From contig CP070692.1 in the NCBI GenBank assembly GCA_020353215.1, positions 318,952 through 352,832 of the forward strand: a stretch of 33,881 nt of DNA. Reading direction: 5' to 3'. The number at the start of each line of letters is the position of its first letter. The first letter of the stretch is position 1. A program made the translations under genes and the position numbers. The notes beneath the pieces were generated by a model, which made no database searches, was not told the DNA's origin, and saw nothing but the letters and a program-made list of their open reading frames with translations. Source of the stretch: Deltaproteobacteria bacterium. GTDB lineage: Bacteria > Desulfobacterota > Syntrophobacteria > BM002. Shown here one piece after another: positions 18,341 through 32,502 of this stretch.

Positions 18341-19353
18341 GGGGAACAAAGACCACAAAACGGCGTCACCAAGAGCTGCGCCTTGCGGACTCCATTCTAC
18401 TCTTAGGATTCGTTTTTTTGCTCCTGCTCCCGGTGTTGGCTCGAGACAGTGATTACGTTTTGCAGGTATTCACCCATGCCGTTCTGTTGGCGACCTTGGC
18501 ATTGGCCTGGAATATCCTGGGAGTGAGTGGTTCCATTTCCCTCGGCCATGCCGCCTTTTTTGGGGTCGGCGCCTACGGTTCCGCTCTCCTGAGTCTTAAC
18601 TTTGGCTTTTCGCCTTGGCTAACTGTTCCATTGGGCGGTCTTGTGGCCACTGTGGTTGCAACGCTCATGGGACTTATTTGCCTCCGACTACGAGGAGCTT
18701 ATTTCGCCCTGGCGACTCTAGCCTTTGTGGAGATCCCCAAAGTCATAACCGACAATTGGGACGGCCTCACCAAAGGATCACTTGGACTTGTGGGGCTCCC
18801 TGGTTTCACTGCTCTGCGTCTAGGCAGGTATTCTGTGGACTTCGGTGCAAGCCCGGCCGCGGTTTACTACTTAGTCCTCTGCTCCGCCCTCCTATTGGCA
18901 TCTCTGGTGGCGCTCATCTTCCGGTCCAACCTGGGGCTTGCCCTTCAGGCCATTCGAGAGGAGGAAGTCGCAGCGGAAGCCGTAGGAGTTCAGGTCCAGC
19001 GATACCGTTTACTGTCTTTATTGGTCAGCGGGTTCTTCACCGGAGTTGTAGGCGGTTGTTACGCCCATCTGATTCGCTATATCGAACCCGGCTTGGTCTA
19101 TGGGATCCATTTCTCCGCCGTGCCTATGATTTTCGCAATTTGCGGAGGTAGATTTACCATACTTGGTCCCGCTTTGGCTGCGCTAATCCTGTACCCTGTA
19201 GATCAGTTCATCTTTCATCCCCTGCTTCCGGCGGGCCACCAGTTCCTTTACGGAGCTGTTATCATTGTAGCCGTTCTTTTTATGCCGTCCGGTTTCTGGG
19301 GACACCTGCGAAAGGGACAATTTGCCCTTCTTAAGACTAGAAGTGTTGAGTAA
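18337..19353 (+). CDS. livM: Branched-chain-type ABC permease, LivM
   Basis: Second permease. At 338 residues it is of normal size, with a basic N-terminus (RGTKTTKRRHQ), then membrane helices with the LivM motifs LAWNILGVSGSISLGHAAFFGVGAY, RLRGAYFALATLAFVEI, LALQAIREEEVAAEAVGVQV (the coupling loop) and YGIHFSAVPMIFAICGG, and a final helix (GAVIIVAVLFMPSGFWG). It overlaps livH by 4 bp and the ATPase gene by 32 bp, which implies translational coupling. Confidence 0.93.
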   Translation: MRGTKTTKRRHQELRLADSILLLGFVFLLLLPVLARDSDYVLQVFTHAVLLATLALAWNILGVSGSISLGHAAFFGVGAYGSALLSLNFGFSPWLTVPLGGLVATVVATLMGLICLRLRGAYFALATLAFVEIPKVITDNWDGLTKGSLGLVGLPGFTALRLGRYSVDFGASPAAVYYLVLCSALLLASLVALIFRSNLGLALQAIREEEVAAEAVGVQVQRYRLLSLLVSGFFTGVVGGCYAHLIRYIEPGLVYGIHFSAVPMIFAICGGRFTILGPALAALILYPVDQFIFHPLLPAGHQFLYGAVIIVAVLFMPSGFWGHLRKGQFALLKTRSVE

Positions 19354-20059
19354 GAAATTCGGGGACTTCTGGGCCCTGCGGGAAATCGATTTCAGCATCA
19401 ATGAGGGGGAGATCGTCGGGCTGGTGGGACCAAATGGCGCTGGAAAGACGACCCTGTTTAACCTAATCACCGGCCGCTACAGGCCCAGCCGCGGGAAGGT
19501 TCTATTTCGTGACCAGGAGATCACCTACTGCAAACCACACGAAATCCGAAAACTGGGGATCAGCAGGACGTTCCAGTCCTGTCGTCCATTTGCCAAGATG
19601 ACCACGCTGGAAAATGTGATCGCGGGTCGTGTGTTCAGCGGCAAATTTCGACTCTTCCCACAACGAATAGACATTGACACAGCGGAGGAGCTTTTAGAGC
19701 TTGTAGGTATTGCCCACAAAGCGCAAACCCCGGCTGGTGATCTTACTCTTAGTGAGCAACGCCGGCTGGACCTGGCCCGGGCCTTGGCGACTCAACCCCG
19801 CCTTCTTCTTCTCGACGAAGTGGCCGCCGGTTTCAGTCCAGTTGCGGTGAAACAGGCGGTGGAGCTGGTTCGACGCGTGCAACAAAAAGGGGTTACTCTG
19901 CTTATCATCGATCACTTCCTAACCTTGAGTCTCCGGGTATCCGACCGATTGTTTGCCCTGGATCATGGCGAGAAGGTTGCGGAGGGTACTCCACAGGAGG
20001 TCATGAGAAATCGCGAGGTAATCCGAGCTTACCTGGGTATGCGACACGAGGAACCATAG
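19322..20059 (+). CDS. livG: Branched-chain-type ABC ATPase, LivG
   Basis: Cytoplasmic ATPase of the uptake system. The 245-residue protein has Walker [12 protein letters not shown]-loop SRTFQSCRPFAKMTTLENV, a LivG-type signature that is loosened to LTLSEQRRLDLARAL instead of LSxGQ, Walker B LLLLDEVAAGFSP and the switch His in IIDHFLTLS. The usual Pro after the catalytic Glu is Val. It starts with TTG at 19322, supported by AAGGGA 5-6 nt upstream, and overlaps livM. Unlike many liv operons, livF is not directly downstream but 393 bp away. Confidence 0.92.
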   Translation: MPFLRLEVLSKKFGDFWALREIDFSINEGEIVGLVGPNGAGKTTLFNLITGRYRPSRGKVLFRDQEITYCKPHEIRKLGISRTFQSCRPFAKMTTLENVIAGRVFSGKFRLFPQRIDIDTAEELLELVGIAHKAQTPAGDLTLSEQRRLDLARALATQPRLLLLDEVAAGFSPVAVKQAVELVRRVQQKGVTLLIIDHFLTLSLRVSDRLFALDHGEKVAEGTPQEVMRNREVIRAYLGMRHEEP

Positions 20060-20452
20060 TGTCCGTTGCCAGTGTTGGCTCATGAAATCTGGGCGCATTT
20101 TGCATTCAAGCATCTCGGCCAAGGGCTCCCCCAGTCGGCCGTAGGCGGGGAAGTGGCACAGGCCTCTCGCAGTCACTCTGAAGAGACACCAGAAAAGGCA
20201 TAGGCTGCGAAACAAGAGCATCTGAGCGACCTGCCTTTACTTTCTCAGCCCCGCTTGTCCATGCATGAAGATTTGGTACTTTGTTAAAAGGGACATTTCC
20301 ATAAAATGGCGCGAATTGCTCGATGTGGAGTAGCCTTCCCCTATGCCTGGGCGGCTAGTGACATTTTGGGAAAGCTGTGGCAGTGTGCGCGTAGCGTCGC
20401 ACTGTACGCTGTGCTATTATACTAACGATGGTCATCTGACGACCGAAACCGT
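20060..20452 (+). other. 393-bp spacer between livG and livF
   Basis: No gene supported on either strand; the open frame on minus is short and starts inside livG. No terminator with a T-run after livG. The end of the region contains the extended -10 described separately. Base composition is more even than in the genes, and the region may be a decayed sequence or an insertion between livG and livF. Confidence 0.35.
20412..20420 (+). promoter_or_regulatory. Candidate extended -10 promoter for livF
   Basis: TGC followed by TATTAT (20415-20420) fits a TGn-extended -10 box; no good -35 box is at the right distance. It is 33 bp before the first possible livF start. Confidence 0.35.
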
Positions 20453-21244
20453 ATGCCAACGATAATTGCCCATATCGATGCCATGGGCCGCCCTAGAGTT
20501 AAAGCTCTAGACATGAACATGGAAAAACCGCTTCTGGCTATCCGCAACCTAAGCTACCACTACGGTGATATCCAGGCACTGTTCCGGGCTAACCTGACTG
20601 TGTGCGAAGGTCAGATTGTTTCCATTGTCGGAGCAAATGGCTCGGGAAAAACAACCCTCATGAAAGCGGTGGCCGGCCTCCTGAGACCGGTGCAGGGAGA
20701 AATCCGTTATCAAGCGGAGAGCATCCAAACGCTTCCTGTCCATGAAGTGGTCCGTCGGGGACTCATCTACGTACCGGAAGGCATGAAGACCTTTCCACTA
20801 ATGAGCGTCCTGGAAAATCTGGAGGTGGGTGCGTACGTATCTCGGGACCAGAAAGCCAGTAGACTCTCTTTTGTTTTCGAGCTATTTCCAGTGCTAGCTG
20901 AGAAGCAGAGCCACCTGGCCAAATCGCTCAGTGGTGGCCAGAAGCGTATGCTGACTTTGGCTCGAGGTCTCATGAGCGGTGCCCGCCTCCTCATGCTGGA
21001 TGATCCCTTTTTAGGTCTGTCCCCGCGGGATGTAAACCGTCTGTGCAATACCCTGAGGCAGATTCGTCGCCGTGGACACACTCTGTTTATGGCCGGGCAG
21101 CATGTGCGTAGAATTCTCCGGGTGGCCACACGAGCCTATCTTGTTGAGCAAGGGAGAATTACTCTGTCCGGTACTGGAGACCAACTCCTCGATCATCCCC
21201 ACCTGCAAGAAAGCCTGTTGGGAATAATTGCGGAGGCAGGTTAA
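20453..21244 (+). CDS. livF: Branched-chain-type ABC ATPase, LivF
   Basis: Second ATPase of the system. Walker A IVGANGSGKTTL, IYVPEGMKTFPLMSVLENLEVGAY (the LivF Q-loop region), an intact signature LSGGQKRMLTLARGL and D-loop FLGLSPRDV are all present. The Walker B reads LLMLDDPFLGLSP: the glutamate that activates water in ABC ATPases is Asp here (codon GAT at about 21001), so catalysis may be slow or rely on LivG. The start is unsure; no candidate has a good ribosome site. The ATG at 20519 (MEKPLLAIRNLSYHYG) matches the family N-terminus best, and a 6-bp hairpin lies just before it at 20493-20510. The 22 extra residues from 20453 look non-native. Confidence 0.85.
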   Translation: MPTIIAHIDAMGRPRVKALDMNMEKPLLAIRNLSYHYGDIQALFRANLTVCEGQIVSIVGANGSGKTTLMKAVAGLLRPVQGEIRYQAESIQTLPVHEVVRRGLIYVPEGMKTFPLMSVLENLEVGAYVSRDQKASRLSFVFELFPVLAEKQSHLAKSLSGGQKRMLTLARGLMSGARLLMLDDPFLGLSPRDVNRLCNTLRQIRRRGHTLFMAGQHVRRILRVATRAYLVEQGRITLSGTGDQLLDHPHLQESLLGIIAEAG

Positions 21245-21396
21245 GAAATCCTGACCCGGAGGACCGGGGCATCGAAATCAAGAAAGACAACTTTGCACTT
21301 CCCTTCAGTTGCTTTGCTGACTTTCCACTCCATGGACGTGTCCCGGATTGGACTCGCCCATAACGGACCCCTAAAATGTTGGGCCAGGTTTGGACC

Positions 21397-22170
21397 ATGA
21401 TAGACGCCCACTGTCATCTCTATTCAGACAAATACACTCACGATATCGATGCGGTGATTAAACGTGCCAGGGAAGTGCTGGAGTCCGTCGTGATCTCGGC
21501 AGTGGACGCGGAAAGTCTGTGGAAAAGCATCACCTTGCGGCGACAACATCCCGAATTCCTTTATGTTACGGGAGGCGTACATCCAAGGCATGCTGCACAA
21601 CTCGGAGAAGCAGAGTTGGCGCAGTTGTGGAGAAACATCGAGCGCGCCAAGGAAGAATTAGTTGCGGTGGGAGAGGTAGGCCCTGATTTTCATCGCGTCA
21701 AGGACTCCCGTTTGCGGCAACGTCAGCTCTTGGTTCTCGAAAGCGCCATGACCCGGGCGGAGGCCATGGGCCTTCCTTTGGTGATCCATGCTCGCAACGC
21801 AGAAGCGGCCGCCCTTGAAGTGGTTAGCAGCAGTAGAACGCCGGTATTGTTCCACTGCTTTAACGGAAGCCCTCACATGGCTAAAAGAATCACTCGTCGT
21901 GGCTTCTATCTTTCCTTTTCAGCCACTCTTCTGTTCAATGAACAAGTTCGGAAAGCCGCCATCCAAGTGGATCAAGATCTAATCCTCACCGAAACCGACA
22001 GTCCAGCTCTCTCACCTCGGCGCGGTCGGCCAAGGAATGAACCGGCTTTTCTCAAAATGGTTGTTTCTCATCTGGCCAAACTGCTAGGAATCCACCCAAC
22101 AGAAATCGGTGCAATTACGTCGGCAAACGCCAAGAGGTTTTATCGCCTCTCATCTCAGCCATGTGCATAG
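21397..22170 (+). CDS. TatD-family metal-dependent hydrolase
   Basis: TatD proteins are TIM-barrel metallohydrolases, usually DNA exonucleases. The 257-residue product starts MIDAHCHLYSDKY with the metal-binding H-x-H (His5, His7), followed by TGGVHPRHA, the metal-bridging Glu in VAVGEVGPDFHR (family usually GEIGLDYH), VIHARNAEA, FHCFNGSPHMAKRI and TETDSPAL with the catalytic Asp. I prefer 21397 over the ATG at 21376 because the family starts at this Met and an AGG lies 8 nt upstream. It is the only nucleic-acid enzyme in this stretch and may form its own unit. Exact substrate unknown. Confidence 0.9.
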   Translation: MIDAHCHLYSDKYTHDIDAVIKRAREVLESVVISAVDAESLWKSITLRRQHPEFLYVTGGVHPRHAAQLGEAELAQLWRNIERAKEELVAVGEVGPDFHRVKDSRLRQRQLLVLESAMTRAEAMGLPLVIHARNAEAAALEVVSSSRTPVLFHCFNGSPHMAKRITRRGFYLSFSATLLFNEQVRKAAIQVDQDLILTETDSPALSPRRGRPRNEPAFLKMVVSHLAKLLGIHPTEIGAITSANAKRFYRLSSQPCA

Positions 22171-22279
22171 TGCTTGCTTTTTAAAGATACTTCCTGGTAA
22201 ACTGACGTCCCAGAATTTCTGGAACCTATTGCTTTTGCAGTATTTTTAACTACGTCAGAGTTTTTCCACGCACACGGGA

Positions 22280-22393
22280 TGATGGAATGTTGGAGTAATG
22301 GAATATTGGGTTAACGCGATGGATCATTTCCAGTTTTTATTGGTTTGAATCTTGCGGAAACCAATATTCTACCAATCCGTTATTCCATCAGTC
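22280..22393. repeat. Inverted repeat before the thioesterase gene
   Basis: The left arm (22280-22312: GATGATGGAATGTTGGAG, then TAATGGAATATTGGG) is matched in reverse by the right arm (22358-22393: AAACCAATATTC, then CGTTATTCCATCAGT). The shared cores are TGATGGAAT and GAATATTGG. A smaller TGGTTT/AAACCA stem lies within. The spacer 22171-22501 has no gene; this element takes up its middle. Its purine-rich GGAAT pattern and inverted layout suggest a dispersed intergenic repeat. Confidence 0.55.
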
Positions 22394-22501
22394 CGATTTG
22401 GACGCAGCCCCTGTGTTCATTTATCGCTCACCATTTTCCCCACTTCCTATTTGTGTGACTGACATGGATAGAACGAACACTTGGAAACGGAGGGTTGACC
22501 C

Positions 22502-22903
22502 ATGAGTGAGGAACTGAAAGCAGGCATGACTCATGAGATGGAAAGACAAGTTACGGAGGATCTGTCGGCACAGAAGGTTTTCCCACACGTCCCCAATGTC
22601 TACGCCACCCGCGCCATGGTGGGTCATTTTGAAGAAGTATGTGCCGAGATGGTTCTTCCTTATCTAGGCGAGGGTGAGCAAACAGTAGGGATCGCAATGA
22701 AATTCACCCACACCGCCGCCACCCCGTTGGGAATGAAGGTGCGGTTTAAGGCCAAGTTGGCTGAAGTGGACGGCAAGAAACTCACCTTTGAGGTGGAAGG
22801 TTTTGACGCGGTGGACAAAATCGGCGAGGCCACCCACCAACGCTTCATTATTAACGCCGAAAAGTTTAACAGCAAAATGGCCGAGAAAGCTAAAAAAGCA
22901 TAG
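22502..22903 (+). CDS. Hotdog-fold thioesterase, FlK-like
   Basis: Small acyl-CoA thioesterase-type protein of 133 residues. It resembles fluoroacetyl-CoA thioesterase FlK: residues Thr36 (in VYATRAMVGHFEE), Glu44 and His70 (in KFTHTAATPLGMKV) have exactly the spacing of FlK's catalytic Thr42-Glu50-His76, and the pattern GEQTVGIAMKF, then LTFEVEGFDAVDKIGEATHQR is typical of this family. GGAGG is 8 nt before the ATG. Being between a TatD gene and an ADP-forming acyl-CoA synthetase, it could hydrolyse small or aromatic acyl-CoAs to relieve CoA trapping; fluoroacetate itself need not be the substrate. Confidence 0.85.
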   Translation: MSEELKAGMTHEMERQVTEDLSAQKVFPHVPNVYATRAMVGHFEEVCAEMVLPYLGEGEQTVGIAMKFTHTAATPLGMKVRFKAKLAEVDGKKLTFEVEGFDAVDKIGEATHQRFIINAEKFNSKMAEKAKKA

Positions 22904-22909
22904 CGAAGT

Positions 22910-23144
22910 CCAGCTGACAGCAGGCAGCTAGAGATTCTGCTGGCTAGGGACTAGGCACTAAACTGTAAGCATGACTTGCTATTGTCTGAAAAGTCAGACC
23001 CCGAACGCGATCGGTTAGGATGATAGCCCGAAGACGTTTCAAATTCTCTTCGTTACCAAAGTTTATTCGGGTAGATCACTCACATTTGTCGTGCCTAGTG
23101 TTTGGTGCCTAGAGCCTAGTTGGGGAAACCTGGCTGTCGGCTGG
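22910..23144. repeat. 235-bp element with long imperfect inverted repeats
   Basis: The left arm begins CCAGCTGACAGCAGGCAGC and contains GGGACTAGGCACTAAAC. The reverse complement of the right arm begins CCAGCCGACAGCCAGG and contains CTCTAGGCACCAAAC. The arms are about 54 nt each. The middle (about 22965-23090) has no coding frame. TAGGCAC occurs several times within the arms. The element fills almost the whole spacer before the acyl-CoA synthetase and leaves its ribosome site intact. It resembles a MITE or a foldback element. Confidence 0.6.
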
Positions 23145-23178
23145 ACGATGGCGCTCTGCGCATATAGGAGGTGTCCAG

Positions 23179-25200
23179 ATGGTACCGGACTCAGCAAGTC
23201 AATTAGACGCCATTCTCAGGCCCGAAAGCTTGGCAGTAATTGGAGCCTCCACCAGCCCTGATAAACTGGGCCATGAGATTCTGAAAAACATCTTGGACGG
23301 TGGCTATCAGGGTAAGGTGTTTCCAATCAATCCCAAGGCCGACGCCATCCTCGGCCTTCCCTGCCACGCGAACATCAAGGATGTTCAGGATCCCATCGAT
23401 CTTGCGGTACTCATCATACCAGCCCGCTTCGTGCCTCAAGCTGTGCAGGATTGTGGAGAAAAAGGCGTTAAAGGAGCGGTGATTATTACCGGTGGATTCA
23501 GCGAGTCTGGTGCCGAGGGAGAAGAGTTACAGCAACAGACAGCCGAGATAGCTCGCAATTTCGGGGTGAGGCTCATCGGGCCCAATTGCCAGGGAGTAAA
23601 CAACCCCCATCATCCAATTTGCGCCTCCTGGCCGCTGCTCACCTATCGTGGCAAGGTGGCGGTCATCTCCCAGAGCGGCACAGTTGGGGCTGCAATGATG
23701 GACTGGTTTTCCGAGGAGAAACTGGGAGTCTCAAGCTTTGTGAGTATGGGTAACCGCGCCGATGTTGATGAAACGGACCTCATCGCCTATTTCAACCGCG
23801 ACTCCAACACGGAGGTGATCGCAGCTTACATTGAGGGCATAAAGCGACCTGAGCAGTTCCTGGAAGTGTTGCAGCGAGTGGAGAAACCGCTGGTTGTGCT
23901 CAAGTCCGGCCGAACACCCAAGGGCAAGGTGGCTGCTGAGTCTCACACCAAGGCACTGGCCGGGGCGGATGCGATCTATGACGCGCTGCTTTCCAAACAT
24001 GGTGTGTGTCGCGCCTACACCATTGAGGAATTCTATGATTTCGCCAAAGCATTCGCTTACCTGAAACGACCAACGGGCAATACCATTCTCTTCATTACCA
24101 CATCCGGTGGGGCTGCCATCCTCGCCACCGATCAGGCTGAACAGGAGGGGATCGATGCAGCTCCGCTGCCGGAGGCAGCAGCAGAAGCGATCACCCCCTT
24201 GATTCCGGCCCACGCTATCAAGGCCAATCCCATCGACCTCACCGGAGATGCGACAGCACAGATGTTTGCGGACGTGATACGTGAGACCAGGGGCTACTAT
24301 GATACCTTGGGAGTAATTTTTGGTGATCCGGTGGAAGGGGCTTCCGAAGTCGTGACTCCCGGGGCCAATGAATTGGTGATTTTTCTCGGTGGGGCGGATG
24401 TGGAAAGACAGGAGCGGGAACTCATGCATCTCAAGGGCATACCGGTATTTCCCACTCCAGAACGAGGGGTGAAGGCGTTGGCCCAAGTACTGGACCGCAA
24501 GGCCCTTGCTCCTCGGCAACAACCAACGCTCACTCTTTCGGCTAGCGGGCGCCAGCTCCCACCGCATCAAGCCCTTGCACTCATTGCTGAAAATGGTTTG
24601 CCTTGCGCTGCTTTCGCTCTCGCCGACACCCCGAGCGAAGCCTCCAGAATCGCTGGCGAGCAAGGATTTCCGGTGGCTCTCAAGATTAGTTCTCCCGATA
24701 TTGTCCACAAGAGCGATATTGGTGGTGTGCGTCTAGGTCTAGAGACTCCAGAATCTGTGGAGAAGGTTTTCGACGAACTGATGCAAGTTGCGCGAGAGGC
24801 CTCACCCGAGGCGCAAATTGACGGTGTTCTGGTGAGCAAGATGGCTCCCCCGGGTCAGGAGGTTATCGTAGGCATGAACCGTGATCCTCAATTTGGTCCC
24901 ATTATTCTTTTTGGGCTCGGGGGGGTGCTGGTGGAAATATTTCGGGATGTGGCGCTGCGTCCCCTCCCCTTGACCCGCGCCGAAGCTGGTGCCATGATCC
25001 GCGGAATCAAAGGCTACCCTGTCCTTGCAGGGTATCGAGGCCATTCCAAGGTAGACGAAAACGGACTGGCCGATTGCCTCCTGGCCGTAGCCAGGATCGC
25101 AGAAGAAAATCCACAGATCGTGGAAATTGATCTAAATCCGGTCTTTGCCTATCCGCAGGAGTCTTTGGTAGCGGATGCGAGAATCATCCTCGCTGATTAG
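23179..25200 (+). CDS. Acyl-CoA synthetase, ADP-forming (acetate--CoA ligase, fused subunits)
   Basis: Links acyl-CoA hydrolysis to ATP synthesis (or the reverse) through a phosphohistidine. The 673-residue protein carries, in order, a CoA-binding Rossmann domain (LAVIGASTSPDKLG, FPINPKADAILGLPC), two succinyl-CoA-ligase-like domains with KVAVISQSGTVGAAMMDW and ESHTKALAGAD, where His256 should be the phosphorylated residue, and a C-terminal ATP-grasp domain (from about 450: FPVALKISSPDIVHKSDIGGV, FGPIILFGLGGVLVEIFRDV, EIDLNPV). This is the alpha-beta fusion found in anaerobes. TAGGAGGTG lies 5 nt before the ATG. With the thioesterase and the AMP-forming ligase it suggests acyl-CoA-based energy metabolism; the acyl group cannot be told. 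Confidence 0.93.
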   Translation: MVPDSASQLDAILRPESLAVIGASTSPDKLGHEILKNILDGGYQGKVFPINPKADAILGLPCHANIKDVQDPIDLAVLIIPARFVPQAVQDCGEKGVKGAVIITGGFSESGAEGEELQQQTAEIARNFGVRLIGPNCQGVNNPHHPICASWPLLTYRGKVAVISQSGTVGAAMMDWFSEEKLGVSSFVSMGNRADVDETDLIAYFNRDSNTEVIAAYIEGIKRPEQFLEVLQRVEKPLVVLKSGRTPKGKVAAESHTKALAGADAIYDALLSKHGVCRAYTIEEFYDFAKAFAYLKRPTGNTILFITTSGGAAILATDQAEQEGIDAAPLPEAAAEAITPLIPAHAIKANPIDLTGDATAQMFADVIRETRGYYDTLGVIFGDPVEGASEVVTPGANELVIFLGGADVERQERELMHLKGIPVFPTPERGVKALAQVLDRKALAPRQQPTLTLSASGRQLPPHQALALIAENGLPCAAFALADTPSEASRIAGEQGFPVALKISSPDIVHKSDIGGVRLGLETPESVEKVFDELMQVAREASPEAQIDGVLVSKMAPPGQEVIVGMNRDPQFGPIILFGLGGVLVEIFRDVALRPLPLTRAEAGAMIRGIKGYPVLAGYRGHSKVDENGLADCLLAVARIAEENPQIVEIDLNPVFAYPQESLVADARIILAD

Positions 25201-25369: not shown

Positions 25370-26305
25370 ATGAGTGTTCCACATTGGCTCTCCGTACGCC
25401 TCAAAAACCAGTATCCCATGCTGCGGTATCTTACTGACCGAACCTTTGGCGTGGAAATCGAATTCTACGGACTAGAATACGTCCTGATCCCAGGTGATGA
25501 AGGCATCATCAAACCCTACTGTATTTCCTCTAGGGCCAAGGATGGCCGGCACTTCAAACAGCTATGTCTTGACTCCAAGATTGCTGTTGGCACCGATAGA
25601 AACTCGTGGCACTTTGAGGAAGACACGTCGGTCAGAGGTAAACGCCACACCAGATATGGTGCTGAACTCGTCAGCCCGGTTCTGAGCGGCCTCGAAGGGT
25701 TGGTGCAGGCTTACCATGCCTTCCAGTTTCTCAACGAGATCGAAGGTGTGGATATTGACGGATCGTGTGGTTTCCATGTCCATCATGGCGTCGACCGTGG
25801 ATCGTACAGGTGTGACAATCTCAAGCAACTGGTGCGAATCGTACACCCCATGGAAAGTCTTTTCTATCTTCTAATTCCCGGTGAACGTCAGAACGCAAGG
25901 ACTTGTCGCCCCATGGAAATTGACGTGAACGCTTTCCTGCAAGCGTGCGATCCTGTATGTGGACCAAAAGATTGCCGGCTCAGAAGACTCTGGTACTCAC
26001 CCGAGAATCGCTACGACCCCAAGGAAGCCAAAGACCCGCGCTATGACAGGACCCGCTACCACGGCCTGAATCTCCATTCTTACTGGTATCGCTCCACCAT
26101 CGAATTCCGCTACCACTCTGCCATACTCCACCACGTTGACGAAGCCATGCAGTGGATCATTTTCAGCCAGTTTCTCGTTGAAATGAGTCAGGGGGCCATC
26201 CCGAGCATCGCCTTCCATTCCAACGGCAACAAATGGCTGCAAACAATTTACGTGATCTACCATGCACTGGGTCTCTCGGACTGCATCCAGCCTCAGCCGA
26301 ATTGA
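25370..26305 (+). CDS. Putative amidoligase (Amidoligase_2, GCS-like fold)
   Basis: Belongs to the family of predicted ATP-dependent carboxylate-amine ligases related to gamma-glutamylcysteine synthetase; none I know of in this subgroup has a proven product. Seen in the 311 residues: FGVEIEF with acidic ligands Glu29 and Glu31, a Trp80...Asp85 stretch ending ELVSP (Glu99), CGFHVHHG (133-140) with three histidines, and GLNLHSYWYRSTIEFRYHS with Glu245 and Arg247, all in the family's order. The ribosome site AGGAGG is 13-14 nt from the ATG, rather far. The next two genes are class II amidotransferase-like, which fits a ligase that is fed ammonia or whose amide product they process (inference). 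An AT-rich 169-bp spacer with a 7-bp hairpin (25210-25231) separates it from the acyl-CoA synthetase. Confidence 0.85.
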   Translation: MSVPHWLSVRLKNQYPMLRYLTDRTFGVEIEFYGLEYVLIPGDEGIIKPYCISSRAKDGRHFKQLCLDSKIAVGTDRNSWHFEEDTSVRGKRHTRYGAELVSPVLSGLEGLVQAYHAFQFLNEIEGVDIDGSCGFHVHHGVDRGSYRCDNLKQLVRIVHPMESLFYLLIPGERQNARTCRPMEIDVNAFLQACDPVCGPKDCRLRRLWYSPENRYDPKEAKDPRYDRTRYHGLNLHSYWYRSTIEFRYHSAILHHVDEAMQWIIFSQFLVEMSQGAIPSIAFHSNGNKWLQTIYVIYHALGLSDCIQPQPN

Positions 26306-26338
26306 CCGGCCACGCGGGATCAGAATATCGCTGAAACT

Positions 26339-26359
26339 GCCGGGATTTTTGATCCGGGC
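26339..26359 (+). other. Hairpin between the amidoligase and the first amidotransferase-like gene
   Basis: An 8-bp stem with one mismatch (GCCGGGAT/ATCCGGGC) and a TTTTG loop in the 99-bp spacer. No T-run follows, so readthrough into 26405 is likely; it could tune mRNA stability or partial termination. Confidence 0.4.
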
Positions 26360-26404
26360 CTGACCTCGGTGGTCATGCCGGATATTTGAAAAGTAGGCAC
26401 GATC

Positions 26405-27145
26405 ATGTGTGACATTCTTGCCGTTTCCGCAGGCTACAACTACGTTGCCCAGGAATACATGCCCATTTTCGCTGAAAAGGCCAAGCAAAACATGAGTGGT
26501 TGGGGCATCGGGTTCTTTCGCAATGGCAAGGCGTTCGTGGAAAGATCATCCGAGCGGGTTTTTGCGGACGATCAGGTGCACGAAGGCTTCCAGAGGTTGG
26601 CACGAATCATAGACAGCAGGATCATCGTATCCCATATCAGCTGTCCCTTGAGCAGTGGTAGCCATAGTGCGCACAACAATCCGTTCGTGCTCCCCTTTCT
26701 GGACCACGTTTGGCTCTTTGTCAATGTCGGCAAGGACCAGGATATTGAAACGTACCAGACCTCCAACGAACCACGACTTGAAGCCGATGTGAAGGCGGCC
26801 AGAGTCTTTGAGTACCTGAGAGATCAACTGACATCGCGTGCCAAGAGTTATCCGTACACGAGTCTCTACGGATCTCTGCGAGACAGTATCAGAGACCTTC
26901 TCACCGAACATCCCGGCCGTTACACTTTTCTGCTAGCCAACGAATCGGTTCTCTTCGCCTTTTCCAACTTCCGGCAACTTCTCCTGCTCAGGAAATCTGA
27001 AACCCTTGGTGACGTTCTGCTCGTGACCTCGGTTGGTGAACGTTTGAGCCCGGAAGACTGGCTCCCCATTCAACCTGCAGAGGACTCCCCTGGCAAGCTC
27101 CTGGTGATCGCCGGTCCGGATGTATTGTATCTTGGGGATGTTTAG
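26405..27145 (+). CDS. Class II glutamine amidotransferase-like protein with degenerate active site
   Basis: An Ntn-hydrolase-type glutaminase homologue of 246 residues. It begins Met-Cys, so Cys2 would become the N-terminal nucleophile, and keeps NMSGWGIGFF. Against its neighbour at 27319 it aligns without gaps for the first 140 residues (63 identical by my count). It differs at the residues that bind glutamine in GlmS-type enzymes: Arg79 is Ser, the HNG oxyanion Asn108 is Val (FVNVG), and Asp130 is Lys (VKAARVFEYL). Gly109 is kept. It is therefore probably unable to hydrolyse glutamine and may act as a partner or bind another amide. The ribosome site is weak (AGTAGG). No frameshift: the frame is open to the same length as its paralogue. 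Confidence 0.85.
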   Translation: MCDILAVSAGYNYVAQEYMPIFAEKAKQNMSGWGIGFFRNGKAFVERSSERVFADDQVHEGFQRLARIIDSRIIVSHISCPLSSGSHSAHNNPFVLPFLDHVWLFVNVGKDQDIETYQTSNEPRLEADVKAARVFEYLRDQLTSRAKSYPYTSLYGSLRDSIRDLLTEHPGRYTFLLANESVLFAFSNFRQLLLLRKSETLGDVLLVTSVGERLSPEDWLPIQPAEDSPGKLLVIAGPDVLYLGDV

Positions 27146-27170
27146 TGTTTTTGGTGTTGTGGTCCGTCGG

Positions 27171-27245
27171 CTGTGGTCAGCTATCGAAAGAGGGTGGCTC
27201 CGGGGTCGGTCGCGGATACACCCAAAGACGGGCAACTGACCACAG
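27171..27245. repeat. Perfect 10-bp inverted repeat in the spacer between the two amidotransferase-like genes
   Basis: CTGTGGTCAG (27171-27180) and CTGACCACAG (27236-27245) are exact reverse complements with 55 nt between them, in the 173-bp spacer. Possible operator pair or long-range RNA stem. Confidence 0.5.
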
Positions 27246-27264
27246 TCTTCAACGTGTCTGCGCA

Positions 27265-27293
27265 GCTCGGAAATTCAGCGTCAATTTCCGAGC
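27265..27293 (+). promoter_or_regulatory. Strong leader hairpin before the second amidotransferase gene
   Basis: GCTCGGAAATT and AATTTCCGAGC form a perfect 11-bp stem around the 7-nt loop CAGCGTC, ending 25 nt before the ATG at 27319. That start has no recognisable Shine-Dalgarno sequence, so the hairpin may take part in translational control or ribosome placement. No T-run, so it is not a terminator. Confidence 0.5.
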
Positions 27294-27318
27294 CATCACC
27301 TTTATGACCTGACTCGCC

Positions 27319-28065
27319 ATGTGTGATCTGTTCGTGCTCTCGGCCGGGAAGAACTACTCTGCTCCCAAATCTTTGCCCCTTTTCGCAGAGCGGGCCAGCA
27401 AAAACATGGATGGCTGGGGCATAGGCTATTTCAAGAAGCACACTGTCCATGTGGAAAAGTCGGCGGAGAGTGCTTATGTTGCCGGCCAGATTCACGACAG
27501 CTTTCAGCGACTGGCCCGACTGGTGAATAGCAGGATTATTCTCTGCCATCTCCGGTTTAGAACCAGCGGCCCTGTCGATGAATGCCATGCTCACCCATTT
27601 ATTCTCAAATTCTTGGGTCACGAATGGCTTTTTGTCCACAACGGCAGGGCACCTGCAGTAGAGTCCTATAAGTCCGTCGGCCCTGAGATTGAAGGGGCGC
27701 GTAGCGATTCGGCCAGGACCTTTGAATATCTTCGAGACAAGTTGAGTGATCGGTTCCAAAGCCCATCCCCAAATCTGCCCTCTCTTTTCGAAACCCTCCA
27801 CCAGAGTACCACGCAGCTTATTTATGAGTATCCGGGAGACTATAACTACGTGCTAACCAACGGCTGGGTTTTGTTTGCCTTCACCAATCATCGGCAGTTC
27901 ATGCTCCTGAAGGGAAGCAACCAGTTGGAAGGTGGTCTGTTGCTCACCACTTTGAACCGCGGCTTGAGCAATGAGACCTGGGTGAGGATTGCAAAGAGCA
28001 CCAATAAGAAAGGTCTCCTGCTGATGATCTCCGGAACTGATATTATTCTACAGCAGGCCCTATAG
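27319..28065 (+). CDS. Class II glutamine amidotransferase (YafJ-like)
   Basis: Predicted glutaminase of the Ntn-hydrolase fold: after removal of Met1, Cys2 is the nucleophile. All expected pieces are present in the 248 residues: NMDGWGIGYF (30-39), CHLRFRTSG with Arg79, HAHPF (90-94), FVHNG with oxyanion Asn108-Gly109, and RSDSARTFEYL with Asp130; these match Arg73, Asn98, Gly99 and Asp123 of GlmS. There is no synthase domain, so the ammonia must go to a partner protein or the protein acts on a different gamma-glutamyl amide. The amidoligase two genes upstream is the obvious partner. It is a tandem paralogue of 26405 and lacks a visible ribosome site. Confidence 0.88.
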   Translation: MCDLFVLSAGKNYSAPKSLPLFAERASKNMDGWGIGYFKKHTVHVEKSAESAYVAGQIHDSFQRLARLVNSRIILCHLRFRTSGPVDECHAHPFILKFLGHEWLFVHNGRAPAVESYKSVGPEIEGARSDSARTFEYLRDKLSDRFQSPSPNLPSLFETLHQSTTQLIYEYPGDYNYVLTNGWVLFAFTNHRQFMLLKGSNQLEGGLLLTTLNRGLSNETWVRIAKSTNKKGLLLMISGTDIILQQAL

Positions 28066-28192: not shown

Positions 28193-29062
28193 CTAATGCT
28201 TGAAATAGTTCACTGCGTTTCGAAAGATCTGAATGCCACCACCTTCTGTGGGGTAGGGTTTCCGTTTGCGGCGATAGTGCTCTTTTTGACGGGTCCACTC
28301 CGGGTGGTTCGTCCAGTGATTGAAGGCCTCGGGGTGGGGCATTAAGCCGAAGACCCTCCCCGTTGAATCGCAAATGCCGGCAATGTCTTCCAGTGAACCA
28401 TTGGGGTTTTCAGGAAAACGACCCTTGGCGGGATTCCCCTCCTTGTCTGCATAACGGAGCACTACCTGGTTTTCTTCCAGGATACGCTTGATAATCGGCT
28501 CCTCGGCATAGAATTTCCCTTCTCCATGACGAACAGCGAGTTCTAAGCGTTCCAGACCTCGGGTGAACACACAACGAGAATCTTCGTTCACGCGCAAATG
28601 AACCCACTGGTCTCGGAAGTTCCCGCAGTCGTTCCAGATGAGAGCCACCCGGCGGGAGCGATAATCACCGTCGAAACCAGGGAGTAATCCCAAGTTGACC
28701 AACGCCTGAAAGCCGTTACAGATACCAATTACCAATTTGCCTGCTTCAATAAAGGCGAGCATTTCCTCGCCGATGTTGTATAACAGCTTGGTGGCCAGAA
28801 GGACGCCGGCTCCGTGGTCATCACCCCAAGAGAAACCGCCGATGAAGGCGACGATCTCGTAGTCTTCCAGCCGGACGATCTCACCGATTGATTCACCAAT
28901 GATCAGCTGATTGATATGGACCCTATGAGCCTCGGCGCCAGCCAACTCAAATGCATGGGTAGTTTCCAGGTCGCAGTTCAGACCATAGCCAGTCAGAACG
29001 AGGGCCCTAGGAGAGCGGGGAATGTGGAATGATGAAGCGCTGACCTTACCATTTCCCTTCAT
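28193..29062 (-). CDS. purQ: Phosphoribosylformylglycinamidine synthase, glutaminase subunit PurQ
   Basis: Supplies ammonia to PurL in the fourth step of purine synthesis. A class I (triad) amidotransferase of 289 residues: VLTGYGLNCDLETTHAF, FIGGFSWGDDHGAGVLLA, the nucleophile Cys115 in IGICNGFQALV, RHGEGKFYAEE, and the His in GLMPHPEAFNHW. It is longer than the roughly 225-residue PurQ of Bacillus and resembles the glutaminase domain at the C-terminus of single-chain PurL. It follows purL by 60 bp. It is convergent with the amidotransferase gene, with 127 bp between them and no clear terminator. Confidence 0.95.
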   Translation of the reverse strand: MKGNGKVSASSFHIPRSPRALVLTGYGLNCDLETTHAFELAGAEAHRVHINQLIIGESIGEIVRLEDYEIVAFIGGFSWGDDHGAGVLLATKLLYNIGEEMLAFIEAGKLVIGICNGFQALVNLGLLPGFDGDYRSRRVALIWNDCGNFRDQWVHLRVNEDSRCVFTRGLERLELAVRHGEGKFYAEEPIIKRILEENQVVLRYADKEGNPAKGRFPENPNGSLEDIAGICDSTGRVFGLMPHPEAFNHWTNHPEWTRQKEHYRRKRKPYPTEGGGIQIFRNAVNYFKH

Positions 29063-29122: not shown

Positions 29123-32100
29123 TTAGAGGTTACCAAAAGGCTTTTTCCAGGCGGATCGACACCGTTGGAGTCCAGCGCCAAACAGGATATTCCCATTCAG
29201 ATCGTTGACCGTGAGTTTGTCATTTTCTGTTACCTTGCCCACCTTGGCGCAACGCAATCCTCTGAATCGCGCCTCAAAATCGCTCTGGTCCTCAGGGGCC
29301 ACAGTCACGATGAACCGGCCAGCTGACTCGGAATAAAGGAGGGTGTCTTCACGCGTTACCCCCTCCGTTGGTACCAGGGCTAGATCAACTTCCAAGCCGA
29401 ACCCACCAGCCATGGCCACCAGAGCCAAGTGAACTCCCAGCCCCCCCCGGTAGATACCGTGCACCGAGGCCACAAGTTCAGCGCCAATGGCTTCCTCCAA
29501 AGCCCGATAGAGGGGAAGCACTTCCTCCAACCTCACCTGCGGCACATGGAGTCCGGTGTAGTTGAACAGATCGTAGTACTCGGAACCTCCCAACTCGTCT
29601 CGAGTCAACCCCAGGACATAGAGGAAGTCCCCTGCCATCTTTACGTCCATGGTCACGCAGCGACGCACGTCATCGATTACGCTTGTTCCGGTAAACTGAA
29701 GAGTTTCGAGACCGGAGACCTTGTGCCGCTCACCGAAACTACCTTCCAGGTTGCCGTCCACATACATACTGTCCTTGCCGGAGAGCAACGGAATCCCGAA
29801 TCCGATACAGTAGTCTCTCAGGGCCCAGTTTGCCCGGACCAATTGTGCCGCCTTGAACTTGCCGTCCGGGTTGCTCTGCGGATGGTACTGGATGTTTGGC
29901 CAACAGAAGTTATCCACTCCTGCGAGGTGCTCGAAGGTGCCTCCAACGGCCAGCAGTCGCCTCACCGTCTCGTCGATGGTGCTGGCCACCATGTGATAGG
30001 CGTCAACGCGGGAATAAGTTGGGTTGAGCGCCTGGGTGATGGCTAGACCCCGGGGCGAGTCGAGATGTGGTCGCTGGACCACCGCGTCGCTGGGTACATC
30101 CTGGTGTACGCCTACCAGGTGCTTGATCACACTGCTCCCCTGGACTTCATGATCATATTGCCGAACAATCCACTCCTTGGAGCAAATGTTTGGTTGACTC
30201 AGCATGGTGAGCAGGATCTGGCGATGATCTTCGGGAGACCCAAGCACCGGCTCGCTGAAACCTCTGTATCTGGGCGGTAACCACTCAGCCTCGAATTCCC
30301 ACTGTGGAAAACCAGATTCAAGCAGATCCAAGTCCACATAGGCACACGTCTCACCTTTGTAAGTCAGGTGCAATTTCCCACTGTCTGTATAACGACCGAT
30401 CACGGTGGACTCAACCTCGTGCTTCCGGGAAAGCTGCATGAAGCGCTCCAGATGGTGCAGTTTCACCGCCACGGTCATTCGTTCTTGGCTTTCGGAAACC
30501 CAGATCTCCCACACGTCAAGACCCTCGTATTTAAGCGGAACTTTTTCCAGCTCAACCATTGCACCCCCGGAAAACAGAGCCGACTCCCCTATGGATGAGG
30601 ACAGCCCTCCGCCCCCATTGTCTGTGAGGAAGGCAATTAAACCCTCGTCCCGAGCTTCCAGGAGAAAATCGAGCATTTTCTTTTGAGTGTAGGGATCGCC
30701 GATTTGTACGTGGCCGGCCGGAGTGTGTTCGCTATAAATCTCGCTGGAAGCGGTTACTCCATGAATACCGTCCTTGCCCACTCGACCGCCACACATGAGT
30801 ATCAGATCAGCATCAGTAGTGGTTTTTTCCTCGCAAGGAGTGTCGGCGACTTGGGCCGGCATCATACCAACGGCTGTGACGAAAACCAGACACTTACCCA
30901 TGTAACCGTGGTCGAAGAAGACCTGACCATAGGGAGTGGGAATACCGCTCTTGTTGCCTCCGTCGCGCACTCCCTCAATAACGCCGTCCAGCAACCGTCG
31001 AGGATGCAGGTGCGGCCTCAGGGGTCCGCTGTAATCCCGAAAGCCAACGCAATAGCCATACGTGCCAGCAATCAGTCGAGAGCCCTTACCCGTTCCCATC
31101 GGATCTCGATAGACACCGACGATGCCGGTGAGCGCACCCCCGTACGCCTCCATGTTGGAGGGACTGTTGTGGGTCTCCCCGGTAATAACGTAGTAGTTGT
31201 CCTGATCGAAGCGGGCCACACCGGCATTGTCCCACAGCACTGAAATGACCCAATCCTTCTTCTTTTGCAGATCCAAGGTGGGCGCTTCTATGCAGGTCTT
31301 GAACAGGTTGTCGACCACTTCCGTCTCGCCGGTGTTCAGGTCTCGGTAGAAGAATTTTCCTCGAAAGGTATTATGGTTGCAGTGGTCGCTTCTTGCCTGC
31401 GATATGTATTCAAGTTCCACATCTGTGGGATCGGACAGGCCCATGTCCCGGCGGGCGGCACGCACCTCGGCCCTGAGAAAGTAGGAACGAATTACTGGAA
31501 TGTCCCTAGGGTGCAAAGCCAGGTTGCGTTGGTGGCTCAAGCGCTGCAATTCCTCGTCACTGTCAATGGAAAAAGTATCTACAGTAGGCTGATGGGCCAG
31601 CCTTACCTTGGGGATGACAATACCGATGCCCTGCTCCGGGTCCCACTCCTCGGCAGAATAGACCCGCCATTGCTGGATGAGGTCATTTGCCAACAGCTCC
31701 TTGGCAATGGACTCCGCTATCCGGCGACCCTTGCCTCTCTTTCTTAATCGCTCGCCTCGGAGAAGATAAAGACGAGAAGTGTAGACTGCTTCTCCAGGCT
31801 GAAATCGAACTTTGAGCAAGTCCTCCATGGCCTCCACGGCGGTGCTCCCGGCGTTATCCCTCACCCCTGGACGGAGGCCGACCCAGATCGCCCAGTCAAA
31901 AGTCGTGGCCAAGGGTTCGAAAGAGGATATTTGTGACACCGGATTGGTAAAGATACGGTGGCGAGCAGACTCTATCTGCTCGCGAGTAAGGTCGGCGTCG
32001 ATGGTGAGGACGTGGATGGTGCGAACCTCCTCCAGGTAGATGTTGAAGTAGTCCCTGGCCTTCCGCCTGATGGCCTCACCCTCGGCATCGAACAGTTCGG

Positions 32101-32131
32101 GCTTGAGGGTAATCTCTAGTCTGACGCCCAC
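29123..32131 (-). CDS. purL: Phosphoribosylformylglycinamidine synthase, large subunit PurL
   Basis: ATP-dependent amidation of FGAR to FGAM in the cytoplasm. 1002 residues. The first 180 contain two PurS-like units (VRLEITLKPELFDAEGEAIR to RHRIFTNPVSQI; YTSRLYLLRGERLRKRGKGR to IAKELLANDLIQQW), so no separate purS is needed. The two AIR-synthase-like halves follow, with ARSDHCNHNTFRG, GETHNSPSNMEAYGGALTG, DNGGGGLSSSIGE, DNFCWPN and LLSGKDSMYVDG. The C-terminal glutaminase of the enterobacterial single-chain enzyme is absent; PurQ replaces it. I start at the GTG at 32131, where AGGGAGC is 6 nt upstream; 66 more codons are open upstream but match nothing. Confidence 0.95.
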   Translation of the reverse strand: MGVRLEITLKPELFDAEGEAIRRKARDYFNIYLEEVRTIHVLTIDADLTREQIESARHRIFTNPVSQISSFEPLATTFDWAIWVGLRPGVRDNAGSTAVEAMEDLLKVRFQPGEAVYTSRLYLLRGERLRKRGKGRRIAESIAKELLANDLIQQWRVYSAEEWDPEQGIGIVIPKVRLAHQPTVDTFSIDSDEELQRLSHQRNLALHPRDIPVIRSYFLRAEVRAARRDMGLSDPTDVELEYISQARSDHCNHNTFRGKFFYRDLNTGETEVVDNLFKTCIEAPTLDLQKKKDWVISVLWDNAGVARFDQDNYYVITGETHNSPSNMEAYGGALTGIVGVYRDPMGTGKGSRLIAGTYGYCVGFRDYSGPLRPHLHPRRLLDGVIEGVRDGGNKSGIPTPYGQVFFDHGYMGKCLVFVTAVGMMPAQVADTPCEEKTTTDADLILMCGGRVGKDGIHGVTASSEIYSEHTPAGHVQIGDPYTQKKMLDFLLEARDEGLIAFLTDNGGGGLSSSIGESALFSGGAMVELEKVPLKYEGLDVWEIWVSESQERMTVAVKLHHLERFMQLSRKHEVESTVIGRYTDSGKLHLTYKGETCAYVDLDLLESGFPQWEFEAEWLPPRYRGFSEPVLGSPEDHRQILLTMLSQPNICSKEWIVRQYDHEVQGSSVIKHLVGVHQDVPSDAVVQRPHLDSPRGLAITQALNPTYSRVDAYHMVASTIDETVRRLLAVGGTFEHLAGVDNFCWPNIQYHPQSNPDGKFKAAQLVRANWALRDYCIGFGIPLLSGKDSMYVDGNLEGSFGERHKVSGLETLQFTGTSVIDDVRRCVTMDVKMAGDFLYVLGLTRDELGGSEYYDLFNYTGLHVPQVRLEEVLPLYRALEEAIGAELVASVHGIYRGGLGVHLALVAMAGGFGLEVDLALVPTEGVTREDTLLYSESAGRFIVTVAPEDQSDFEARFRGLRCAKVGKVTENDKLTVNDLNGNILFGAGLQRCRSAWKKPFGNL

Positions 32132-32502
32132 TTGTAGCTCCCTTGCTCTCACGAATTCACCGGCCAAAAGTAGCAGATTTATTTTAACCCAGTCAACTGA
32201 ATCCCACCTTCGTGACTTACCCCATTTCTTCTCACCTTTGAACCACCTGTAAGAACCTCCTCTCCCCTTGTCGAAGATCTGGCCCTTTGGCGAAAAGCGC
32301 GTAGGAACAAGGTGATCAGCCAAAGCCAACCGCTGATCACGTTGACAACAAGAGGCTTCAGTAAAGAATCCGGATCCATCGAAGATCCCGCTGTGCGGGG
32401 GAGGACCAGGTTTTCGATGCTAAATGAATTGGCGCAAAGTTCAGTATAAACATTTGATTGTAATCCCGACTGCTTGGACCAAATACGGGCCCTACCTCTC
32501 TC

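Follow-up and report, generated by a model that had tools for sequence, protein, structure and literature searches.

Amidoligases paired with a class II glutamine amidotransferase (GATase) were reportedly predicted by Iyer et al. 2009. In LUZ24-like phages, OM43 phages and phiEco32, an Amidoligase_2 gene has a class II GATase gene nearby on the same strand, and the phage pair has been put down to cell-wall modification or secondary metabolism (PMC10580990; PMC3890496). Amidoligase and gamma-glutamyl cyclotransferase genes have also been listed in the same prophages (PMC11318856), and one phage carries an amidoligase, an amidotransferase, a glutathione synthase and a cyclotransferase (PMC10945688). 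Here we describe a chromosomal set of three genes, designated AMDL, GATa and GATb, in a 33,881-nucleotide stretch of Deltaproteobacteria bacterium DNA (assembly GCA_020353215.1, contig CP070692.1, positions 318,952 to 352,832; hereafter the window). Unlike the phage pair, which has one GATase only and often a gamma-glutamyl cyclotransferase in its place, this cassette encodes two GATase_4 paralogues, one of them with a degenerate glutamine pocket. The set, carried by bacteria of the sulfate-reducing type, is probably a real enzyme system. The initial annotation knew of no description of the three-gene arrangement. An amidoligase with one class II GATase is already described in phages; no description of a chromosomal set with two GATase_4 paralogues was found in the literature searched, although the survey of Iyer et al. 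2009 may mention one.

The three open reading frames matched the initial annotation exactly in position, length and strand, and in the Met-Cys start of the latter two. AMDL (25370-26305, + strand, 311 aa), a predicted carboxylate-amine ligase with a predicted glutamine synthetase (GS)/GCS fold, scored 99.6 bits (E = 3.5e-28; cut-off 22) to Amidoligase_2 (PF12224), the match running from position 2 to position 242 of the 245-position profile, in line with its earlier naming as an amidoligase. GATa (26405-27145, + strand, 246 aa) and GATb (27319-28065, + strand, 248 aa), both of which begin Met-Cys-Asp, matched GATase_4 (PF13230) with 44 bits (E = 1.5e-11) and 89 bits (E = 3.3e-25), respectively, against a cut-off of 23. 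The Pfam matches of all three proteins are far beyond chance. GATa and GATb are tandem paralogues, as judged from their 42% identity over length. AMDL was the sole protein of this genome with a PF12224 match, and besides GATa and GATb there was one weak match to PF13230 at a remote position.

Close AMDL relatives (E < 1e-78) and GATa/GATb occurred in the identical seven genomes among 297 of the phylum, for which the raw chance is ~3e-14 if phylogeny is ignored. Among 31 genomes of the class, both were present in 17 and neither in 13; no genome had AMDL only, and the single genome with GAT only was an 80%-complete metagenome-assembled genome (MAG) whose GAT match lay near a contig start. Two of the 17 (G317 and G320) showed GATa alone, on a short contig that begins with it. 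Joint presence extended to genomes in which the genes are not linked: AMDL and GATa-GATb lay on separate contigs in the f10 genomes and were unlinked in G299, and in the f97 genomes AMDL and GATa were adjacent with GATb on another contig. Co-occurrence rules out a chance pairing, and the reading of AMDL, GATa and GATb as a recurrent functional unit is supported. Within families presence was patchy, with a single positive among the genomes sampled from f3 and likewise from f4; joint gain or loss therefore probably took place more than once.

The same recurrence was seen at the level of gene order. Neither of the two outcomes that the initial annotation had named as refuting, a missing profile match of AMDL to amidoligases or homologues that never stand together in other genomes, was observed. 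AMDL was searched as a single-protein query, which picks up close relatives only, against 84,980 species genomes and returned 25 loci, whose titles all place them in Desulfobacterota or the former Deltaproteobacteria; cassette genes were taken from tblastn or hidden Markov model matches, since gene callers had miscalled some loci. AMDL, GATa and GATb were consecutive, in the same order and on the same strand, at 18 of the 25 loci, and two more loci ended at a contig edge after GATa. Of the other five, L027 and L031 each add a second AMDL to a genome with the full cassette (L080 and L081), the genome of L028 has its GATa-GATb pair at a separate place (L082), and the genome of L018 contains L041 as an additional, truncated AMDL copy; the lone exception without a close GAT pair was L026, from a 3.0-Mb MAG. 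Linked cassette genes ranged from an 8-base overlap to 394 bases apart, close enough to make co-transcription plausible; promoters and terminators around the three genes showed no clear excess over shuffles. Gene content flanking the cassette varied between clades. The simplest cause of the linkage is therefore selection acting on AMDL, GATa and GATb themselves, and not shared descent of the region as a whole.

The two GATases differed sharply in their predicted glutamine pockets. GATb has the canonical glutaminase residues, with Cys2, His77-x-Arg79 (HLR), His107-Asn108-Gly109 (HNG; 27637-27645, + strand) and Ser129-Asp130-Ser131 invariant in 24 aligned sequences, and HNG invariant in ordinary GATase_4 as well; from GlmS, PurF and EgtC we take these class II sites to provide the nucleophile, alpha-carboxylate binding, the oxyanion hole and alpha-amino binding. 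Its best Protein Data Bank (PDB) sequence match was the YafJ-type GATase_4 1te5 (phmmer E = 6.9e-9), with EgtC weaker. The window copy of GATa keeps Cys2, as do all copies, and has Ser79 for Arg (HIS for H-x-R), Val108 for Asn (NVG for HNG) and Lys130 for Asp, with the SDS motif missing. The Asn aligned with GATa codon 108 (26726-26728, + strand) is missing in 34 of 34 GATa sequences and present in all GATb and ordinary GATase_4, the Asp of (S/T)DS is likewise missing in 34 of 34 rows, and the Arg is kept only in four f10 sequences and L224. GATa is therefore a homologue that is not a predicted glutaminase. Both GATa and GATb share their Pfam family and N-terminal Cys with YafJ-type GATase_4, from which GATa differs by the missing glutamine-binding residues and both differ in forming a separate group. 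Accordingly, of what the initial annotation had said about these proteins, membership of the class II amidotransferase family held for both (GATa also by its fold matches), the class II motifs proved complete in GATb but not in GATa, and the suggestion of two ammonia-supplying glutaminases found no support, given the consistent and conserved loss in GATa.

Since ordinary GATase_4 proteins, as the outgroup, keep the full residue set, the GATa pocket represents a derived loss. All 28 members of GATa alignment A2 had Pfam matches to GATase_4 alone, and in a maximum-likelihood tree the 34 GATa rows formed one clade (support 100/99), with GATa and GATb together split from ordinary GATase_4 (100/100); GATb was the paraphyletic remainder and long branches were flagged, for which reason the inner order of the tree should not be pressed. 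The closest GATa pairs had ratios of nonsynonymous to synonymous substitution rates (dN/dS) of 0.06-0.28, as low as the 0.06-0.30 of the closest GATb pairs, which indicates that GATa is maintained by purifying selection; together with clade-wide invariance, this rules out a decaying pseudogene. The predicted GATa model (predicted local distance difference test score, pLDDT, only 71) had EgtC as its best solved-structure fold match (E = 4e-10, template modeling (TM) score ~0.63) and also matched 1te5, PurF (TM up to 0.73) and GlmS, and on this model GATa has the N-terminal nucleophile (Ntn) amidotransferase fold.

GATa has also acquired conserved residues of its own. Cys80 (codon at 26642-26644, + strand) is found in 34 of 34 GATa sequences, where GATb has F, L, M, Y or H and ordinary GATase_4 has R or L; Glu180 occurs in 97% of copies, with other residues in GATb and the ordinary family, and conservation of His101 is restricted to GATa. 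These residues, the invariant Cys2, the dN/dS as low as that of GATb and the single clade would all suit a neofunctionalised Ntn hydrolase with a non-glutamine substrate, such that the cassette would encode two hydrolases of different specificity, with the AMDL product and a compound related to it as their substrates. In class II enzymes the oxyanion hole is made by the Asn of HNG, and the loss of this Asn in 34 of 34 copies speaks against such an activity, which we consider unlikely.

In AMDL the conserved residues were kept. Residues invariant in 30 of 30 aligned sequences were E29 and E31 (FGVEIEF), W80, D85, E99 (ELVSP), C133, H136 and H138 (CGFHVHHG), R229, H231, N234 and H236 (RYHGLNLH), and R241 and E245 (RSTIEF), and all of the conserved acidic, His and Arg residues checked were kept even in mobile-element members only 26-27% identical. 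A sequence search of the PDB gave no match at a meaningful E-value. The top PDB fold matches of the predicted model (pLDDT 83.5) were YbdK-type ligases (1r8g, 1tt4) and glutamine synthetases, which AMDL may resemble in fold and ligase class, with modest scores (E = 1e-4 and weaker, TM-scores ~0.2-0.4). AMDL is placed in the amidoligase family by its profile match and, weakly, by its modeled fold.

In the mechanism that we tentatively favor, at a little short of an even chance, AMDL would make a gamma-glutamyl (or related) amide, GATb would cleave it and GATa would be an obligate non-glutaminase partner. AMDL would use ATP to activate a carboxylate, most likely the gamma-carboxylate of glutamate, and join it to an amine, giving the gamma-glutamyl amide of a small molecule or peptide. 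The Arg/Asp/HNG pocket of GATb would recognize this amide and the N-terminal Cys would cleave it, as in EgtC, and with one enzyme attaching and the other cleaving, the pair would constitute an attach/remove cycle. GATa would have arisen by tandem duplication, lost canonical glutamine binding and been kept as an obligatory partner, whether as a subunit with a structural or regulatory role in a complex of all three proteins or as a hydrolase re-specialized through the kept Cys2 and the new Cys80 and Glu180. We infer the gamma-glutamyl chemistry, the cycle, the complex and the role of GATa alike.

The preference for gamma-glutamyl chemistry draws on the phage amidoligases. Among 80 viral amidoligase loci (IMG/VR), 22 had one nearby class II GATase on the same strand and none had two; viral GATases were mostly GATase_6 by Pfam, and every one of the 28 phage and mobile-element GATs was a single copy with HNG. 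The commonest gene downstream of a viral amidoligase encoded a gamma-glutamyl cyclotransferase (Pfam GGACT). When the viral loci were dereplicated at 80% identity and GGACT was counted anywhere in the fetched stretch, 37 of the remaining 51 had GGACT, 11 had a class II GATase and 3 had both (Fisher p = 5e-4); GGACT was not found at any cellular cassette locus examined. Class II GATases and gamma-glutamyl cyclotransferases are unrelated, and their common property is action on a gamma-glutamyl amide. Mainly because phage amidoligases swap the one for the other, we infer gamma-glutamyl chemistry in preference to ammonia supply. The best solved-structure fold match of GATa, EgtC, agrees with this reading, being itself an enzyme that cleaves a gamma-glutamyl amide.

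Ammonia supply is nevertheless the main alternative, possible if rather unlikely on our analysis: GATb would hydrolyze glutamine, GATa would act as a non-catalytic scaffold, and ammonia would be channeled to AMDL, yielding the primary amide of an acid. Such a system would work like MurT-GatD, which is likewise amide-forming and combines a ligase with a separate glutaminase, but in which the ligase has the Mur-ligase fold and the glutaminase is class I rather than class II, neither being homologous to the cassette proteins. GATb has every class II glutaminase residue examined, the phage and mobile-element GATs with their uniform HNG agree with this role, the three genes co-occur strictly, and AMDL remains next to GATa in genomes where GATb lies elsewhere, as a scaffold would predict. 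On the other side, phage amidoligases have a cyclotransferase more often than a GATase and rarely both, and a cyclotransferase could not supply ammonia from glutamine as a glutaminase would. Ligases of the GS fold already take free ammonia or amines, and we know of none that needs a class II glutaminase.

Several points weigh against the gamma-glutamyl cycle. GATb as an ordinary glutaminase would look identical in its residues, GATa could still be catalytic given its kept Cys2, and the mutual exclusion of GATase and GGACT may partly reflect phage lineage. The single-GATase systems of phages and mobile elements need not share the substrate of the chromosomal one, and the literature searched contained no Amidoligase_2 member with a demonstrated reaction and no biochemistry for the family.

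A close functional parallel to the proposed cycle is found in ergothioneine biosynthesis, where the GCS-like ligase EgtA adds a gamma-glutamyl group and the class II Ntn enzyme EgtC, which cleaves a gamma-glutamyl amide, removes it. A pathway of this type, with AMDL as EgtA and GATb as EgtC, would accord with EgtC as the best fold match of GATa, with the match of the EgtC model TIGR03442 to GATb (E = 6.9e-9) and with an EgtD-like histidine methyltransferase encoded in this genome (G000 C1:3965102-3966001, - strand, E = 1.6e-104). The TIGR03442 scores of 35.4 and 24.3 bits, however, are far below the cut-off of 218.65, AMDL belongs to Amidoligase_2 and not to the EgtA family, and EgtD did not track the cassette: a strong match occurred in this one of the seven cassette genomes, the other six being without it, and in many cassette-free genomes. 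We know of no degenerate EgtC sister in the ergothioneine pathway. On score and distribution we rejected this reading, which we regard as almost certainly wrong.

Origin from a phage, or a part in defense, is very improbable as an account of the cassette. Phages and mobile elements often carry members of the amidoligase family, and an alteration of the cell surface has been proposed for the phage amidoligase and GATase (PMC10580990). Viral amidoligases were, however, ~24-32% identical to AMDL, and cellular relatives with a GAT pair were far closer than any phage protein (~45-82% as against ~30% identity); PADLOC gave no match, and there were no mobile-element genes among the identified neighbors of the cassette loci. 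Six mobile-element-like loci from several Desulfobacterota families (L048-L053) had closely related amidoligases with a GATase_6-type gene; at L051 a DUF5049 protein was encoded between the two and a helix-turn-helix protein followed.

Upstream of AMDL on the same strand (19322-25200) lie a LivFG-type ATP-binding cassette (ABC) transporter, a FlK-type (fluoroacetyl-CoA thioesterase family) gene at 22502-22903 and an adjoining ADP-forming acyl-CoA synthetase-like gene at 23179-25200; the latter two are kept jointly with LivFG in close relatives. The statement in the initial annotation that no transporter adjoins the cassette was therefore loose. Because the transporter, thioesterase and synthetase stand beside the cassette only in close relatives, they are poor evidence of function. 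A PurQ-like separate gene (28193-29062) adjoins PurL (29123-32329, - strand), whose N-terminal end includes stretches resembling PurS, making it a PurS-PurL fusion. Elsewhere, the second AMDL subclade at L027 (2712-8037) and L031 (3132-7664) adjoins a tyrosine-decarboxylase-type pyridoxal phosphate (PLP) decarboxylase and a 493-aa protein without a Pfam match that is very weakly M3 peptidase-like and has a relative at L026 (1-2856); this subclade could represent a variant of the system that uses amines. In the f10 genomes (L043-L046) AMDL closes a cluster of ribosomal protein genes (S4, L17), with an NlpC/P60 gene directly upstream at L045 and homologues upstream at the other three loci. Roles read from the acyl-CoA synthetase, FlK thioesterase, Liv transporter and PurQ/PurL were rejected, as were those from PLP decarboxylase, NlpC/P60 and beta-lactamase-fold neighbors, since each stands next to the cassette or AMDL in certain clades only. 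At L041 (5980-7266; MAG bin435, with its intact cassette at L018) an in-frame fusion joins the first half of AMDL to the C-terminal region of a DNA polymerase of the IMS (Y) family, by rearrangement or assembly error.

Taken as a whole, the cassette may possibly, though this is a speculative proposition, represent a hitherto undescribed amide-forming enzyme of Desulfobacterota with three subunits, which would combine an Amidoligase_2 ligase with a heteromeric class II Ntn pair, one member catalytic and the other an obligate pseudo-glutaminase marked by Cys80 and Glu180, to give a new gamma-glutamyl or amidated metabolite. The contrast between the two pockets makes a specific, testable claim, namely that GATa would be unable to use glutamine. 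An active-looking class II glutaminase next to a degenerate but strictly conserved sister copy would be an unusual Ntn pseudoenzyme pair. Amidoligase_2 proteins are common in phages; the chromosomal version, whose partners are tightly co-inherited and which occurs in a named strain, Desulfoferrobacter suflitae DRH4 (L037), is a tractable set for finding the reaction.

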